DNA of 39,684 bases from Candidatus Kapaibacterium sp. (GTDB lineage Bacteria; Bacteroidota; Ignavibacteria; Kapaibacteriales; Kapaibacteriaceae), in contig VERF01000017.1 in assembly GCA_018882895.1 (NCBI GenBank), positions 1 to 39,684 of the forward strand. The letters run 5' to 3'. The notes beneath the pieces were generated by a model. The model had not been told where the DNA came from and did not search any database. It worked only from the letters and a program-made list of their open reading frames with translations. Position numbers and translations under genes: made by a program. Below, piece after piece: positions 7,473 through 19,320 of this stretch; within the stretch, counting starts at the first letter, position 1; every line of letters begins with the position of its first letter.

Positions 7473-7493
7473 AAGTTGCCTGCACCAGTATCT

Positions 7494-7556
7494 AGTAGCT
7501 AGTAGCTAGTAGCTAGTAACTAGTAACTAGTAACTAGTAACTAGTAACTAGTAACT
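7494..7556. repeat. Heptanucleotide array, AGTAGCT x3 then AGTAACT x6
   Basis: Nine 7-base units, the first three AGTAGCT and the last six AGTAACT, so variants are grouped in blocks as expected from slippage or local duplication. The array ends 6 bases before the glmM ATG and fills the expected 5' leader. Both strands contain stop codons in every frame. Confidence 0.95.
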
Positions 7557-7562
7557 TGCACG

Positions 7563-8906
7563 ATGCTTATACGCTCGATTTCCGGACTCCGTGCCACTCT
7601 TGGTGATGATCTGACCCCGGAGGTAGTGGCGCGGTATGCGGTTGCCTTCAGTGCCATCCTTCCTGAGGGGCCCATCGTTGTTGGGCGGGACGGACGTCCG
7701 AGTGGAGTGTGGATGGAGCAGGTGCTGATTGGTGCATTGCGCGCCTGTGGTCGCACGGTGCGGCAGCTCGGGATGGTGCCCACTCCAACGGTTCAGTTGC
7801 TTACTGAGCACACCGACGCCGTTGGTGGCATTGCAATCACCGCGTCGCACAACCCGGCGCCGTGGAACGGACTGAAGTTCGTTGATGCCGGAGGCGTATT
7901 TCTTGATGCCGAGGACAACCAGAGACTATGGAACCAGGTCGACCAACGCGGCGGAGAACTCTCACCGCTTCAGCAGGCCGGCTCTTTCGAAGTCGTCAGT
8001 GACGCCATAGAACAGCACATTGATCGTGTGCTCTCCCTGTCGGCCGTGGCTGCTGCGCCCCCTGCCGCAGGACAGACCGTGGTGGTCGATGCCGTCAATT
8101 GCTCCGGTTCAGAGATCGTTCCGATGCTGCTCGAGCGTCTTGGCTATCGTGTGGTGCGGCTGCATGCCGATGGATCTGGCATCTTCCCGCATGTGCCCGA
8201 GCCCCTTGCCGAAAATCTTATGGGGCTTGGCAGAGCGGTCCTTGAACACGGGGCCGCCTTTGGCGTGGCCGTCGATCCTGATGCCGACCGGCTCGTCCTC
8301 TTCGACCGTTTTGGCGCTGCCATCGGCGAGGAGAAGACCGTCGCCCTGGCTACCAGAGCTGTGCTATCGGCCGGACATCTCGGACCGGTGGTGGTGAACT
8401 TCTCATCATCGCGCATGACCGATGACGTGGCGGCCGAGTTCGGTTGCAGCGTCGAGCGCGCCCCTGTGGGCGAGATCAACGTAGTGCGACACATGCAGCG
8501 CATCGACGCCGTGATAGGGGGCGAGGGAAGCGGCGGCGTGATCTATCCGGCATGCCATGCCGGACGTGACAGTATTGTGGGTCTGGCTCTGATCAGCGCA
8601 ATGCTCCGCCGCGAGAACATCACGCTGGAAGATGCGTGCGCACGCCTGACGTCCTACACCATGATCAAGACCAAGATCGATCTTGCCTCGCGCGTCGATT
8701 TGGAGCCTATTCTGCAGCGGATCACAGAGCGCTTTGCCGATGCGATCGATTCGACGCTCGATGGTATCTACTTGCGATGGAGCGACCGTTGGGCGCATAT
8801 CCGTGCCTCCAACACCGAGCCCATCATGCGAGTGATCGCCGAGGCTCGCAGTGAGCAAGATGCGCGCGACATTGTTTCGTCGATCTCCTCACTGATCGGT
8901 GGCTAG
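7563..8906 (+). CDS. glmM: Phosphoglucosamine mutase / phosphohexomutase (GlmM-like)
   Basis: An alpha-D-phosphohexomutase of 447 residues. The GlmM reaction turns glucosamine-6-P into glucosamine-1-P for UDP-GlcNAc, hence peptidoglycan and LPS. Visible sites are the phosphoserine loop TASHNPAPWNG (S95), the metal loop DPDADR (238-243), the sugar-specificity loop GGEGSGG (319-325) and the phosphate loop RASNTEP (414-420). The N-terminus (LIRSISGLRAT) is that of Bacteroidota GlmM-type enzymes, supporting the ATG at 7563. Phosphomannomutase activity cannot be excluded from sequence, but murD in the same gene block favours a cell-wall role. No Shine-Dalgarno is present; a heptamer array fills the leader. 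Confidence 0.9.
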   Translation: MLIRSISGLRATLGDDLTPEVVARYAVAFSAILPEGPIVVGRDGRPSGVWMEQVLIGALRACGRTVRQLGMVPTPTVQLLTEHTDAVGGIAITASHNPAPWNGLKFVDAGGVFLDAEDNQRLWNQVDQRGGELSPLQQAGSFEVVSDAIEQHIDRVLSLSAVAAAPPAAGQTVVVDAVNCSGSEIVPMLLERLGYRVVRLHADGSGIFPHVPEPLAENLMGLGRAVLEHGAAFGVAVDPDADRLVLFDRFGAAIGEEKTVALATRAVLSAGHLGPVVVNFSSSRMTDDVAAEFGCSVERAPVGEINVVRHMQRIDAVIGGEGSGGVIYPACHAGRDSIVGLALISAMLRRENITLEDACARLTSYTMIKTKIDLASRVDLEPILQRITERFADAIDSTLDGIYLRWSDRWAHIRASNTEPIMRVIAEARSEQDARDIVSSISSLIGG

Positions 8907-8910
8907 CCCC

Positions 8911-11900
8911 ATGGCGTCGAACGGGATCGCACTTGCACGACGCGTGCTTGCCAAATGCCTGCAGTCGGCCGTTGGCGGTGAAGGCTCACGACACGTCATT
9001 GAGGAATACAGCAGCGTCGAAGGATCCTTCCGCGTGCTGCGCGATGCATCGACGAATCGGGCCATTGCTGTAGTTGACGCAATTCTTCCTTCTGAAAGTC
9101 CGTTCGACGAAGTTCCGCGCGACAGACTGCGTGCGGTGGCAACGCGCCTGCAAGCCCCGTACTTCATCCTGACCAATTTTCGCCGCGTCGTAAGCTACCG
9201 TACTGAAGGCGTGCTCAAGAGACTGCCCGACGAGCAGCACACCGTAGGATGGCAGAATGCATCCGACGTGCGGGCGGTGGCCGACGCCGAAGCATCCGGA
9301 ATGCAGATCGGGATCACGTCGGCGCTGCGCCAGGCAATCCTCTGGCTTGGCGTCGACGAATCGCTCTCAGCGCAGCAGCGCGTCACTGACGCGTCCGGCT
9401 TCTTCAGCGAGCGCGTGCTGGCGCTCTTTGATGATCTCGTGCAGTGCTGCGAGTCAGGGGGCGAGCACCGCGATGCCGTGCTCCGACTCGGAACGAGCAT
9501 CCTTGCCTACGTTCTCATGCACGTGCGCGACCGGGAGAATCTCGATCGATTGTCTCTGCCCTATGGGCTCGGCAGTGCCGAGCTTATGACCGATCTGGTG
9601 GGCGCCTTCTTCCGTCAGGCCCGTCGCCGCGGCCACACAATGTTGCCCGAATCGGTGAACGACATTCGCATTGTAGCCGGCCGCGAGGGCGTCTTCCGAA
9701 TGACGCTGTCGGACCTGATCGACTTTCTGCATCGGTTCGATCCCGAGCGACTCTCGGACCACGATCTGCACCGTGCGGTCGACGCTGTGCTGCAACGCTG
9801 CGCGCGCATTGCCAGAGCCTCCGTGCCAACCATCGACGCGCTGGATCTGGCGCTCAGGATGTCGTTGCATGCGGGAGCAACTTCTGCGGGACCGCAACCG
9901 GCGCGTCAGCGTCTGCTCGAGATCGGCCAAACACAGGGTCTGGCCAGCGTCCGCCACTTGCTTATGTCAGGCGATGCCCCCTGCGAGGCGCGCGTCTATG
10001 CACGCACGGCCGAGGACGAGAGGGCCATCGTTTTGCGATCAAGCGGACGTCTTGGCGTGGAAGCCGACGTGCAGATCCTGCGTGAAACGCGCTTCGTCCG
10101 CAGCCCATGGAACATGGTCGTGGCCACGTCCACCGATGTGCGCGAGCGGCATCGACTGCGCCTTCTGCTGGAGCGCCTGCCGATCGACGTTGGTGGTACG
10201 GTTGTACTCTTCTTGCCGATCTCGGCCTTGCACGACGAGAGATATGATGCCGTGCGAACGGTACTTGCAGACCGGTTCGCCATCGAGTGGCTTGTGGTGA
10301 GCGATGCAGAAGCGCTTGCCGAGCCCGACACGGGCGTGTGCTTCATCGTGGCTCGACGCGTCAACGGGGTCGACCCCGATCATGCCGCCCGATGCGTGTA
10401 CCTGCGCCGCCCCATAGCGGCCTTCTTCCCTTCCTCGAAGGCCTCGCGCGACCTTGAGCAGCATCGCCTGCGGGCACTTGACACCTTTGTTGCCTATCTC
10501 GACGCATCACGTCAGGGTAAGCTCAACGACGAAGCCGTTGTGCGCATGATCCCCCAGGAGATCCTCCGACGTCACACGGTCTGGGAAGACTTCCTTGTTC
10601 CGCCCGACGTGCTGAGCTCCATCATGAGCAAGACGCTGCCGCACGTGCGCCCCTTACGGGAGTTGGCCGACGTGTCAGGGGGCTTGCGCACCGGTGCGTT
10701 TGATGTGTTTGCTCCCGACACTCAGCAGATCGCATCGGACGACATTGAAAGTCAATTCTGGCAGCGCGTTGAAGCCGACGGCAGCCTGGTTGACAATCTC
10801 ATTCTTATGTCGGGCGACGAGATCGAATCAATGTTCGGACTCCCCGATGCCGACCGGCGGTTGCTCTGCCTACCGAAGGATCGAGCGCAGATGAGCGGAA
10901 CCAATGCGCTGACGCGCATCGAGCGTGCCGAACGTGATGGTGTGCACCTGCGCACATCGGTGCGCCATGCCCAGCACTGGTGGCATATTCAGCCCCCTGA
11001 AGCCCCACATCTTGTTGTACCGAAGCAGCAGGCGCAGCGTTGGGTGGTGGCTGTCAACTCCGTGCGTGCGTATGCGGCCGATGCGTTTGTGTGCGTCACG
11101 CTGCAGCGGCCGGAGCTAACCGACCGCATTGCACTGTGGATGAACTCCACCATCGGGCTGTTTCTGAGCGAACTCATGCGCGATGGCTCGCATGTGCAAA
11201 GCATTACCGTTCGTGATGCGCAGGAGTTTCCGATCGCCGCAGAGGAAATCCTTCAGCGCATCGACCAGTCCGCCTTTACGGGGCTTACCCGGCGTCGGGT
11301 TACGACCCTTGCCGATGAGTTTGGAGCACTCTCCTACGACAGTATCCGGCCGGAGACGATCCTTCGGGACAGGCGCAAGCTGGATGCCTTCATCATGACG
11401 GACCTGCTGGGTCTTACCGATGAAGAGCAGCGGTGGGTGTATCGATTCGCCTACTCGTGGTGGTCCCGTGCATCGAACATCCGTCACATTGCCAACGCCA
11501 TGATCCATGAATTGGAGCGCCGCTATCGCGTGAAGCCCCTTCGCACATGGTACTGGCCGCGCATCGATCAGCTTCCGGACGGGAACCGTCGTCAGATCGT
11601 GCTCGATACTGCTCCTGTGAACGTGAACGTATCGGCCACCATGTTCGGTTGGCAGGTTCGTATAGAGATGACCTCCGGAGACGATCTGCTCATCGACACG
11701 TCCGGAGCCGAGGAAGCAGAGTGCATCGGCCTATTCCTGCGCATGGGGGTCAGAGCCGTTGAGATCCCATCCGATGCCGTGCTCATCGCCGAGGTTCTTC
11801 CACTGCTGCGCTCGTATGTTGACATTGTTGAAGAGCATCTGCCTGAGATGCTTGCCCCCTTCCCCGATGATATGCGCCAGGCCATCAGGTATGATGTGGC

Positions 11901-11922
11901 CCGCGCCTTGTGTTCGCGCTGA
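8911..11922 (+). CDS. Large restriction-modification-like protein with degenerate nuclease and methyltransferase motifs
   Basis: A 1003-residue protein with the layout of a type IIG or large N6-adenine methylase, apparently without catalytic residues. Residues 1-110 resemble a restriction nuclease N-domain (LQAPYFILTNFRRVVSY), but the strand that should carry E-x-K reads AVVDAI (D56). A helical region follows, about 130-330, then a methyltransferase-like core, about 330-500: 'VYART..DERAIVLRSSGRLGVEADVQIL' sits where the SAM-binding strands should be, the NPPY position reads ATST (405-408) after WNMVV, and the post-motif stretch GGTVVLFLPISALHDERYD is family-like. No DPACGSG-type motif I is seen. 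Residues 530-770 look like a target recognition domain (WWHIQPPEAPHLVVPK; MNSTIGLFLSELM). Start: the ATG 4 bases after the glmM stop; a GTG at 8899 is possible. Base use matches the neighbours. Perhaps a DNA-binding, non-cutting descendant. Confidence 0.72.
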   Translation: MASNGIALARRVLAKCLQSAVGGEGSRHVIEEYSSVEGSFRVLRDASTNRAIAVVDAILPSESPFDEVPRDRLRAVATRLQAPYFILTNFRRVVSYRTEGVLKRLPDEQHTVGWQNASDVRAVADAEASGMQIGITSALRQAILWLGVDESLSAQQRVTDASGFFSERVLALFDDLVQCCESGGEHRDAVLRLGTSILAYVLMHVRDRENLDRLSLPYGLGSAELMTDLVGAFFRQARRRGHTMLPESVNDIRIVAGREGVFRMTLSDLIDFLHRFDPERLSDHDLHRAVDAVLQRCARIARASVPTIDALDLALRMSLHAGATSAGPQPARQRLLEIGQTQGLASVRHLLMSGDAPCEARVYARTAEDERAIVLRSSGRLGVEADVQILRETRFVRSPWNMVVATSTDVRERHRLRLLLERLPIDVGGTVVLFLPISALHDERYDAVRTVLADRFAIEWLVVSDAEALAEPDTGVCFIVARRVNGVDPDHAARCVYLRRPIAAFFPSSKASRDLEQHRLRALDTFVAYLDASRQGKLNDEAVVRMIPQEILRRHTVWEDFLVPPDVLSSIMSKTLPHVRPLRELADVSGGLRTGAFDVFAPDTQQIASDDIESQFWQRVEADGSLVDNLILMSGDEIESMFGLPDADRRLLCLPKDRAQMSGTNALTRIERAERDGVHLRTSVRHAQHWWHIQPPEAPHLVVPKQQAQRWVVAVNSVRAYAADAFVCVTLQRPELTDRIALWMNSTIGLFLSELMRDGSHVQSITVRDAQEFPIAAEEILQRIDQSAFTGLTRRRVTTLADEFGALSYDSIRPETILRDRRKLDAFIMTDLLGLTDEEQRWVYRFAYSWWSRASNIRHIANAMIHELERRYRVKPLRTWYWPRIDQLPDGNRRQIVLDTAPVNVNVSATMFGWQVRIEMTSGDDLLIDTSGAEEAECIGLFLRMGVRAVEIPSDAVLIAEVLPLLRSYVDIVEEHLPEMLAPFPDDMRQAIRYDVARALCSR

Positions 11923-11990: not shown

Positions 11991-12998
11991 ATGCTGAACC
12001 ACCACGCGATCGTCGCCCTGCGGCTGATCGCACGTCTACCCAACGACACCATACGAAACCTGAGCTCGGAATGCTCGGATCTTGATGACGCGCTGCAGCG
12101 CATCGGCCGGCATCCGATGGATCTGTTCGATCGAGCCAACCAACAGTTGGAGCGATGTCGGCAGATCGGCGTACGCGTGATCCCATGGAACGACGAGCAC
12201 TATCCGCGCAGGCTTCTTGAGATCGGCTCGCCCCCTGCCGTGATCTTTGTGCGAGGGGGCCTGCCCGATGAATCGAGACCAACACTGGCGATCGTCGGCA
12301 CCAGGTCATGCACGATCCACTACGGCAAGCCCGTGACCGATGTGCTTGTAGAGTCATGGACGCAGCGCAGCGCCGTCATCATCAGCGGCCTGGCGCACGG
12401 GATCGACACCGTGGCACATGAGGCCACGCTCAGGATGCGCGGTATCACGGTGGCCGTCATCGCCAGCGGGATCGACCGCATCACGCCCGTGGTGGCGCAG
12501 CGTCTGTCGGACCGGATCGTCGAGGCCGGCGGCTGCATCGTCACCGAGCACCCGTGCGGTGTAGCAGCGCTTCCTCCGGCCTTTCCGGCGCGCAATCGCA
12601 TCATCTCGGGCATGAGCGACGCCGTGGTGGTGGTCGAAAGCAAGAGTCGCGGAGGCGCCCTCATCACGGCCGAGTTTGCGCGTATGCAGGGTCGACCCGT
12701 CTATGCCGTTCCCGGACCCATCACTTCGACGCGCAGCGACGGTTGCAACGCCCTGATCGCCACCGGAGCGGCACGCCTTCTGACGTCGGCCGATGACGTC
12801 GCAGAGCTCCCGCCGATGCCTGCGCAAAGGGCCCCCATGGAGACGATCGAGGGACTCGACACCGGGAGTCCTCGACATGTTGACGACATAGCAATGCTCT
12901 GGAACTGCAGCGCTGCCGAGGCCATGGGCAGGCTTCTCGACCTTGAGCTTGGCGGACGTGTTACGCGCCTTCCGGGCAACCACTTTCTGGCGCGATGA
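11991..12998 (+). CDS. dprA: DNA processing protein DprA
   Basis: DprA loads RecA on single-stranded DNA during natural transformation. The 335-residue protein shows the Rossmann-like core: IVGTRSCTIHYG (101-112), SGLAHGIDTVAHEATL (132-147), FPARNRIISGMSDAVVVVES (198-217) and SRGGALITAEFA (219-230). An N-terminal helical domain (1-60) and a C-terminal winged-helix-like part (about 285-335) complete the usual long form. GGAGG at 11982-11986 supports the start. A 68-base gap separates it from the degenerate methylase gene. With comF nearby this suggests DNA uptake, though many non-competent bacteria keep dprA. Confidence 0.95.
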   Translation: MLNHHAIVALRLIARLPNDTIRNLSSECSDLDDALQRIGRHPMDLFDRANQQLERCRQIGVRVIPWNDEHYPRRLLEIGSPPAVIFVRGGLPDESRPTLAIVGTRSCTIHYGKPVTDVLVESWTQRSAVIISGLAHGIDTVAHEATLRMRGITVAVIASGIDRITPVVAQRLSDRIVEAGGCIVTEHPCGVAALPPAFPARNRIISGMSDAVVVVESKSRGGALITAEFARMQGRPVYAVPGPITSTRSDGCNALIATGAARLLTSADDVAELPPMPAQRAPMETIEGLDTGSPRHVDDIAMLWNCSAAEAMGRLLDLELGGRVTRLPGNHFLAR

Positions 12999-14045: not shown

Positions 14046-14051
14046 GTGTCA

Positions 14052-15071
14052 ATGCCCATGTCGAGCCAGTCAGCACACACAGATAATTTCGCCCCCTACC
14101 GTGATCGCATAGAGTCGGCCCTTATCGATGCTCTTGCCGAGTTTCGTGAGCCACATTGCCTTTACGATCCCGTTCACTACCTCTTCGAGGCAGGGGGCAA
14201 ACGGGTCCGCCCGGTCCTTACGCTGCTTGCCTGCGAAGCCGTCGGCGGCGCGGCCGAGCATGCACTGCCGGCATCAGTGGCCATTGAGCTGCTGCATACC
14301 TTCACGCTTGTGCATGACGACATCATGGACAGCTCGGCCAAGCGGCGCGGGCGCGACACGGTGCATCGCAAATGGAACACCAACACCGCTATCTTGTCAG
14401 GCGACGTGATGATGGGCATGGCCATGCGTCTTCTGCTGCGAAGCGCGGCACATGCACCACGTCCGCTCGACGTGGTGGATGCATTTTCGACGGGGCTCAT
14501 CGACGTATGTGACGGACAGGCTCTCGACATGGAGTTTATGCTCCGCTCCGACGTCAGGGCCGACGAGTACTTCATGATGATCGAGCGCAAGACGGCGCGC
14601 CTGCTTGAGACATCGGTGGCCATAGGTGCCAGCATCGGCGGTGCCGATCAGCATCAGCGCGAATCGCTGCAGAGATTTGCCCGCGAGATCGGCCTGGCAT
14701 TTCAGATGCAGGATGACATCCTTGATGTGATCGGTGCGGAGAAGTTTGGCAAGGCACGTGGCGGAGACATCATCGAGGGCAAGCGCACATGGCTCATGCT
14801 TGAGTGCTGTGCACGCGTCGAATCCGATGTCAACGCCTCCGGCGAGCATCGACATCTGGTGGCGATGTTCCGCTCCGGAACGCCCCTTACCAAGGATCAC
14901 GTTGATGCGGTGATCGGCATGCTCGAGGCCTACGGGATCATGGAAGCAGCAACGTCCATCGTTGGGCATCACACCGAGAACGCCTACGATTCCCTCCAGC
15001 GCCTGCCGGCCTCGGATTCCAGAGATCGACTGCGCCAGCTGGCGGCATCGCTCATGGAGCGGACCCACTAA
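14052..15071 (+). CDS. Polyprenyl diphosphate synthase (trans-isoprenyl, GGPP/FPP type)
   Basis: A head-to-tail prenyl synthase that condenses IPP with allylic diphosphates. It shows GGKRVRPVL (48-56), the first Asp-rich motif LVHDDIMD with D89, D90 and D93, and the second, FQMQDDILD, with D221, D222 and D225. The first motif lacks the two-residue insertion of typical bacterial FPP synthases, and the residue five before its first Asp is Phe, which usually limits chain length; a C15-C20 product is my inference. Length 339 is normal. Start ATG 14052; a GTG at 14046, directly after the fni stop, is also possible. Products could feed menaquinone (menG at 25737) and carotenoids (CrtI-like gene at 26447). 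Confidence 0.92.
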   Translation: MPMSSQSAHTDNFAPYRDRIESALIDALAEFREPHCLYDPVHYLFEAGGKRVRPVLTLLACEAVGGAAEHALPASVAIELLHTFTLVHDDIMDSSAKRRGRDTVHRKWNTNTAILSGDVMMGMAMRLLLRSAAHAPRPLDVVDAFSTGLIDVCDGQALDMEFMLRSDVRADEYFMMIERKTARLLETSVAIGASIGGADQHQRESLQRFAREIGLAFQMQDDILDVIGAEKFGKARGGDIIEGKRTWLMLECCARVESDVNASGEHRHLVAMFRSGTPLTKDHVDAVIGMLEAYGIMEAATSIVGHHTENAYDSLQRLPASDSRDRLRQLAASLMERTH

Positions 15072-18185: not shown

Positions 18186-18856
18186 TACGCCCCCTGCTGA
18201 TCCTGGCACTCGCGATCTCATGCGTTCAGCATCTTGTGGCAGCTCCGCCACCCGATGCAAAGACACTTCTCCTCTCAATACGTAAGCGCATGGAGTCGAG
18301 CGGCAAGTACTCCGCCGATCTGCGTCTAAAGGTCGACATTCCCTTTATCAAAGCCCCCGAGGCACGGGCCACGCTTGCCTTTACGCCTCCGAATTCGACG
18401 AAGATCACGGCAAAAGGATTTGCCATGATCCCCAAGCAAAGCACCGATCTGAGCGCTCTTTCGCTTCTCTCCGGCGAGTTTGCTGCCATCGACATGGGTA
18501 CTGAGAATTGGAAGGGGCAAACCCTGCGCAAGATCAAGGTCATCCCCGCCGATGAGTCAGCCAACATCGTCCTGGCCACCTTGTTCATTGACGCCGACGC
18601 GCTCCTTACCCGCAAGGTCGTGGCAACATCCAAGGCCGGTGGCTCGGTCACTGCCGAAATGATCTACGACAACGCTAAGGCAGCCGCCTTCTGCCTTCCA
18701 TCCTATATGAAGATCATGATGGAAGTGCCCAACTTTGAGATTCCCCGCACCATCACGGGTGACTTCAACGAATCATCCCAGCCCAAGAAACCAGCAGACC
18801 CGAATGGCAAAACAAAGGCCACGGTGGAGATCTGGTATGAGACGTATAGGTTTTAG
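18182..18856 (+). CDS. Periplasmic protein, LolA-like fold (putative)
   Basis: A 224-residue exported protein. Starting at GTG 18182 gives a clear signal peptide (VIRPLLILALAISCVQHLVAA), whereas upstream starts lie inside the permease gene. The mature part reads like the outer-membrane lipoprotein carrier (LolA/LolB) fold: 'TLLLSIRKRMESSGKYSADLRLKVDIPF' at its start, then repeated beta strands. A role in handling a lipid or lipoprotein moved by the adjacent ABC system is inferred. The final codons, including the stop, lie inside a TTTTAGG heptamer array, so the C-terminus ends where the repeat begins. The fold assignment is moderate; export and operon membership are solid. Confidence 0.7.
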   Translation: MIRPLLILALAISCVQHLVAAPPPDAKTLLLSIRKRMESSGKYSADLRLKVDIPFIKAPEARATLAFTPPNSTKITAKGFAMIPKQSTDLSALSLLSGEFAAIDMGTENWKGQTLRKIKVIPADESANIVLATLFIDADALLTRKVVATSKAGGSVTAEMIYDNAKAAAFCLPSYMKIMMEVPNFEIPRTITGDFNESSQPKKPADPNGKTKATVEIWYETYRF

Positions 18857-18885
18857 GTTTTAGGTTTTGGGTTTTGGGTTTTAGG
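18851..18885. repeat. Heptanucleotide array TTTTAGG/TTTTGGG
   Basis: Five 7-base units: TTTTAGG twice, TTTTGGG twice, TTTTAGG once. The TAG in the first unit (18854-18856) is the stop codon of the preceding gene. The unit resembles telomere-type repeats only by chance; it is internal and short. Confidence 0.92.
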
Positions 18886-18891
18886 TGCCCT

Positions 18892-19230: not shown

Positions 19231-19320
19231 GTAATCCGTAATCCGTAATCCGTAATCCGTAATCCGTAATCCGTAATCCGTAATCCGTAATCCGTAATCC
19301 GTAATCCGTAATCCGTAATC
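19231..19320. repeat. Heptanucleotide array GTAATCC, about 13 copies
   Basis: Ninety bases of uninterrupted 7-base repeat. Its last two bases are part of the exonuclease III stop codon (19319-19321), so the array abuts the gene exactly. The plus strand carries TAA in each unit; the minus strand has no stops and so stays open in all frames, which creates a spurious repetitive reading frame. Confidence 0.96.

Follow-up and report, generated by a model that had tools for sequence, protein, structure and literature searches.

Restriction enzymes are typically mobile and short-lived in genomes. The type IIG enzyme RM.BpuSI combines a nuclease, a helical region, a methyltransferase and a target-recognition domain (TRD) in one chain, and the fold of its last two domains is also common to M.Eco57I, the M.TaqI-like N6-adenine methyltransferases and PglX of BREX systems. 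Mutation of the asparagine of the NPPY motif in BpuSI abolishes SAM binding, methylation and cleavage (PMC3817140). The stretch of Candidatus Kapaibacterium DNA analysed here (the window, 39,684 nucleotides) encodes a protein with the domain order of RM.BpuSI, but with neither a nuclease motif nor NPPY, with a TRD that is acidic and is its best-conserved part, and with vertical inheritance at a fixed locus. In contrast to M.Eco57I, the M.TaqI-like enzymes and PglX, it has lost the catalytic loop and is accompanied by no BREX or partner genes.

The gene (8911..11922, + strand) begins with an ATG at 8911 and encodes 1003 amino acids with no internal stops, as the initial annotation had stated. 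It is separated by 4 bases from the stop codon of glmM (phosphoglucosamine mutase, 7563..8906, + strand, with Pfam PGM_PMM domains I-IV and supported by synteny), which ends at 8906, and its own stop lies 68 bases before the start of dprA (11991..12998, + strand, with Pfam DNA_processg_A and DprA_WH, also supported by synteny). Farther downstream are an FMN-dependent dehydrogenase (fni-like), a polyprenyl synthetase (14046-15071), murD and ABC transporter genes, each confirmed by Pfam; the position originally described, 4 bases after glmM and before dprA, fni and murD, agrees with the coordinates and with Pfam, the polyprenyl synthetase between fni and murD having gone unmentioned. The spacing, taken by itself, suggests that the gene is expressed in an operon with its neighbours. 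The window also contains 7-bp tandem arrays (ATGACTG x18 at 1-126, the contig end; AGTAACT x10 at 7487-7556, just 5' of glmM; TAGGTTT x6 and GTAATCC x13 at 18847-18886 and 19231-19320), in which heptamer units recur with differing sequences; words from the GTAATCC and AGTAACT arrays are over-represented in the genome sample as well.

Single-sequence searches with the protein gave no matches in Pfam (E up to 1) or in the PDB (E up to 10), and the sole NCBIfam match, to acylphosphatase in one member, was judged to be due to chance; the type IIG-like layout proposed in the initial annotation was thus read without an easy hit. Structure prediction and a fold search, the check suggested at that time, placed BpuSI first: the AlphaFold2 model derived from a 16-orthologue alignment (pLDDT 85.9, pTM 0.78) matched BpuSI in Foldseek over nearly its full length (PDB 3s1s, E 3.6e-22, 953 columns), followed by CamA, M.BseCI and PglX. 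TM-scores were modest (0.41 and 0.46), as expected when domains shift relative to each other. A profile comparison (hhalign) against intact type IIG enzymes from the same order gave 99.6% probability over residues 420-847, and the PADLOC model MTase_II matched 16 of the 16 members tested, the models PglX and REase_MTase_IIG one member each. The protein is not a BREX PglX, its neighbours being glmM, dprA, fni, prenyl synthetase and murD, and NPPY being absent.

A profile search located an intact relative with the same full layout in another family (G066, L109:493-3978), comprising nuclease D..EAK, GQYFT, DPSCGAGTF, NPPY and TRD, with a TAA stop and then a small C-terminal domain. On its 4-kb contig this copy lies beside neither glmM nor dprA; it follows an ORF that resembles radC (by eye). 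Additional intact relatives are found across Bacteroidota (G256, G200, G188 and G405; L114-L117), and other type IIG-like enzymes of Bacteroidota have NFPF or NLPF in place of NPPY (L118, L120, L124, L126 and L127). The intact relatives keep the nuclease ExK, the GxG of motif I and NPPY, whereas the Kapabacteria protein does not, although the sequences can be aligned over most of their length, C-terminal parts included. Together with the nearly full-length BpuSI match, this alignment bears out the type IIG-like layout, and in its predicted fold and aligned sequence the protein shows descent from a BpuSI-like type IIG enzyme.

Residues 1-145 (8911..9345, + strand) form a dead PD-(D/E)xK-type nuclease domain, in which joint alignment with the intact relatives shows all three catalytic residues replaced (D by S39, E by D56, K by I58); the E-x-K place reads V-D-A-I, in agreement with the VVDAI noted initially. 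A helical connector (residues 146-300; 9346..9810, + strand), assigned from the AlphaFold2 secondary structure, is followed by the methyltransferase Rossmann core (residues 301-500; 9811..10410, + strand), which by alignment, model and pattern check has a shortened catalytic loop and no NPPY. The GQxFT place reads SVPT in the window protein. NPPY and its downstream loop are both missing in the joint alignment, and with the catalytic loop deleted and an ambiguous alignment at this point, the residues that correspond to NPPY can be assigned only to within a few positions; of the earlier reading of this place as ATST, the absence of NPPY stands, and the exact residues are known only to within that uncertainty. 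The earlier report of no match to motif I was too strong, since DPxxGxG has become an invariant E337-x-G339-x3-G343 (DNA 9919-9939, + strand, by alignment) at exactly this place in 21 of 21 orthologues. In two of the genomes (G014 and G019) a long stretch has been lost soon after the motif I loop, including the second and third strands.

The motifs of the intact relatives (D..ExK, GQxFT, D[PS]xCGxGTF, and NPPY or NFPF) were sought by pattern check in 21 orthologues and found in none. ExK at the active-site position is absent from all 21, as is motif IV in the methyltransferase core, whether as (N/D/S)PP(Y/F/W) or as NFPF/NLPF; two stray strings resembling motif IV lie outside the core (SLPY at 215, and DPPH in L033). 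The catalytic loss thus extends beyond one copy to both centres of every orthologue tested, no intact motifs turned up elsewhere in the protein, and no orthologue among the 21 has NPPY, so that a recent pseudogene is not supported. Given the inactivity of the BpuSI mutant that lacks the asparagine of NPPY, loss of both activities is a safe prediction; the protein is not expected to be either a restriction enzyme or a DNA methyltransferase, and the features tested argue against classing it among functional type IIG enzymes.

Retained binding of SAM or another nucleotide, which would make the protein a ligand sensor or a methyltransferase acting on another substrate, is quite improbable. The invariant glycines and glutamate at the motif I place, the complete Rossmann strands of the window model, and the family profile's best PDB matches, weak ones (E 0.87 and 1.4) to O-methyltransferases with LEIGTAIG at this place, are in its favour, but two orthologues (G014 and G019) have lost two strands of this fold, SAM binding by BpuSI needs the asparagine of NPPY (PMC3817140), and the methyltransferase core is among the less conserved parts of the protein.

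A six-frame search of 60 related genomes, 23 of the host family (f1) and 37 from other families of the order, detected the gene in 22 of the 23 family genomes and nowhere else at full length, the orthologues being 84% identical within the genus and down to 31% identical between genera. The only family genome without the gene is G006, in which a contig breaks off after the first quarter of glmM and dprA could not be found; its locus is thus evidently unassembled, an assembly gap. The G019 match was flagged for a single local TAG. A collection of 84,980 species yielded 19 loci, all of them on contigs already found in the Kapabacteria family, mostly under the title Candidatus Kapaibacterium or Ignavibacteria bacterium; two with the titles Melioribacter roseus and Bradyrhizobiaceae are probably MAGs that were mislabelled.

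Conservation of the position between glmM and dprA, another check proposed at the outset, holds always for glmM and mostly for dprA: glmM is directly upstream in every family genome with both genes on one contig, and dprA is directly downstream except at contig ends and in three genomes. In G012 and G015 defence genes separate the two, and in G011 dprA is located on another contig, so that the linkage to dprA is not a strict one. The insertion in G012 (L046:10484-14937) encodes an MmeI-type enzyme that looks intact (DPACGSGNF, NPPF) as well as a HipA_C protein, and that in G015 (L045:10460-11437) is an Abi_2 abortive-infection-like gene. In three other families of the order, dprA follows glmM directly on the same strand and the gene is absent (G025, G034 and G041 of f4; G029, G037 and G044 of f8; G031 of f10), which makes insertion in the ancestor of the host family the simplest history. 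Most likely, the ancestor of this one Kapabacteria family acquired a BpuSI-like type IIG gene between glmM and dprA; the nuclease and N6-adenine methylation chemistry of its product would then have been lost, and vertical inheritance as a binding protein would have continued ever since.

Strong purifying selection acts on the gene, which is constrained like its neighbours: in comparisons of the window with its two nearest relatives, dN/dS of the gene comes to 0.080 and 0.089, against 0.147 for glmM, 0.143-0.160 for dprA and 0.096-0.097 for the prenyl synthetase, all values being approximate because synonymous sites are near saturation. In the closest pair (dS 0.43), dN/dS of the gene is still 0.07. 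A decaying, functionless remnant, to which the loss of both catalytic centres might point, is hardly credible for a frame that is open in 22 of 23 genomes at identities down to 31% and is under constraint no weaker than that of its neighbours; a recent pseudogene was rejected on the open frame together with the dN/dS of about 0.08. Purifying selection, conserved position and lost catalytic motifs support the suggestion of the initial annotation that a non-enzymatic role has been kept. Identity between genera is 45% in the TRD and 33% in the methyltransferase core, the reverse of the intact relatives (core 52%, TRD 45%), and these identities show that constraint has evidently moved from the core to the former TRD.

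The former TRD (residues 561-780; 10591..11250, + strand) was delimited by the PADLOC MTase_II match (531-756), hhalign, conservation and charge, and is followed by a helical part and a small C-terminal domain (residues 781-1003; 11251..11919, + strand). It retains the fold and hallmark residues of DNA-binding relatives (G591, G595, W690, N716, R593 and R710), and its near-invariant basic residues are K574, R593, R619, R650, R681, R685, K705, R710 and R768, among which R619, R650, K705 and R768 are newly arisen and invariant or nearly so. The net charge of the TRD is -2 to -14 in 12 of 12 diverse orthologues, whereas close intact relatives have 0 to +11, and lysines of the intact enzymes are reversed to aspartate at 636, 648 and 724. 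As a control, active methyltransferases from the host family were found to be mildly acidic also, so that part of the acidity is a lineage effect; the acidity and the charge reversals argue against ordinary DNA binding, but with these enzymes and the new invariant arginines taken into account, the acidic TRD is weaker evidence against it than at first sight.

A conserved TRD with lost chemistry argues for a binding role. The protein is probably a domesticated pseudo-restriction enzyme, vertically inherited and acting as a binding protein through its rebuilt TRD half. Its ligand may tentatively be taken as DNA, at somewhat below an even chance, which the protein would recognise without modifying it and would handle together with products of the cluster such as DprA. 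A protein ligand such as DprA ranks after DNA as a close second: the former TRD half might bind DprA, or a restriction enzyme that the dead protein inhibits, as a scaffold or decoy. Such a role is possible at lower probability, in keeping with the acidic TRD and its conserved charge reversals, the adjoining dprA gene, and the defence genes that in two genomes separate the dead gene from dprA. DprA of Helicobacter pylori has been reported to inhibit restriction and to stimulate a methyltransferase (PMC4489622), which gives crosstalk between DprA and methyltransferases a precedent. Against a scaffold or decoy are the glycines 591 and 595, W690, N716 and the basic residues 593 and 710 retained from DNA-binding relatives, and the fact that no active methyltransferase partner gene travels with the dead gene.

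For a DNA ligand, the initial annotation had offered the example of sequence-specific binding linked to DNA uptake or replication. To test the uptake idea, over-represented oligomers were sought in sampled stretches, and the octamer ARGGGGCT was prominent in all five family genomes sampled and in none of the five sampled from other families. Whole-genome counts on both strands, with the pattern read backwards as the control, gave 555-2,275 copies in most family genomes. Enrichment (octamer/reversed) is high in G000 (1734/115), G001 (2004/93), G010 (1127/36), G011 (1871/82), G014 (1360/102) and G020 (2275/91), lower in G002 (333/48), G004 (443/62), G007 (548/72) and G013 (457/63), weak in G015 (158/87) and absent in G012 (68/131), G016 (104/104) and G017 (121/182). 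None of 37 genomes of the order's other families has a 2-fold excess, and none of 190 non-family genomes in a 198-genome sample of the phylum (Bacteroidota) has more than 100 copies per Mb together with more than 5-fold excess. The host genome (2.57 Mb) contains 1734 copies, and the window 22 sites versus 1.0 in shuffles (for example 3249, 8200 on the - strand, 10677, 10991 and 11534 on the - strand, and 13220), three of them inside the dead gene. In G013 (L156-L163), where ARGGGGCT is weaker, TCACCGGG is over-represented (45 copies in 160 kb, where 3.5 are expected) and may represent another motif or a family of repeats.

The spacing of ARGGGGCT is roughly one site every 1-2 kb in most family genomes. 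In the complete genome (G014), most of 20 stretches have about 10 sites per 20 kb, roughly evenly divided between strands regardless of GC skew, and a single stretch (L169), overlapping an Eco57I-type match, has none. Sites occur in all six codon phases, for which reason a codon-pair effect was rejected, and their flanks carry little information; a terminator stem was likewise rejected, a complementary arm being present within 40 nt at only 4 of 120 AAGGGGCT sites, and no strand bias like that of Chi or KOPS was seen in the 20 stretches of the complete genome. These traits, read from genome sequence, bear the marks of an uptake sequence more than those of Chi or KOPS. The DNA uptake sequences of Neisseriaceae and Pasteurellaceae are similarly short motifs present in hundreds to thousands of copies, on both strands and in all codon phases, and absence of ARGGGGCT from a sampled stretch with a restriction-modification gene is a further likeness. 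They belong to another phylum and differ in sequence, and PilT was not detected in the Kapabacteria family. ComEC is encoded in 21 of 23 family genomes; the PilT model had no match in 22 of 23 and one weak match below threshold in the other, so that a classical type IV pilus route is doubtful. Literature searches found no uptake or self-recognition sequence described in Bacteroidota, and nothing on a dead type IIG protein or the octamer motif in Kapabacteria.

Both the protein and ARGGGGCT are limited to one Kapabacteria family. Three genomes without the motif (G012, G016 and G017) and the weakly enriched G015 retain the protein, and a tree of five syntenic proteins places these four with G013 in a single clade of weakened octamer, all of whose members keep the protein. 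On this tree, the ancestor of the family would already have had ARGGGGCT, and its loss or weakening would have taken place in that one clade. No clear replacement motif was found in about 66 kb sampled from the motif-free genomes. The ratio of TRD identity to overall identity is 1.22 in distance-matched pairs of motif-positive genomes versus 1.09 in the motif-poor clade, the genomes compared being few and related.

The dead protein could be a cytoplasmic reader whose frozen TRD recognises ARGGGGCT and marks incoming DNA or routes it to DprA, an unlikely reading at present. It is favoured because protein and octamer are confined to the same family, because the octamer is apparently ancestral there and is asymmetric like the sites of type IIG enzymes, and because the TRD is relatively more conserved where the octamer is present. 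If this reading is true, a restriction enzyme would have been turned into a reader of self DNA, and the family would be the third lineage with uptake-type sequences. The search for a target has revealed an octamer that occurs family-wide and has the character of an uptake or self-recognition sequence. A type IIG enzyme that is fixed in a housekeeping cluster throughout a family after apparently losing both activities would be a clean case of domestication, and the dead protein offers a testable non-enzymatic use for the type IIG scaffold.
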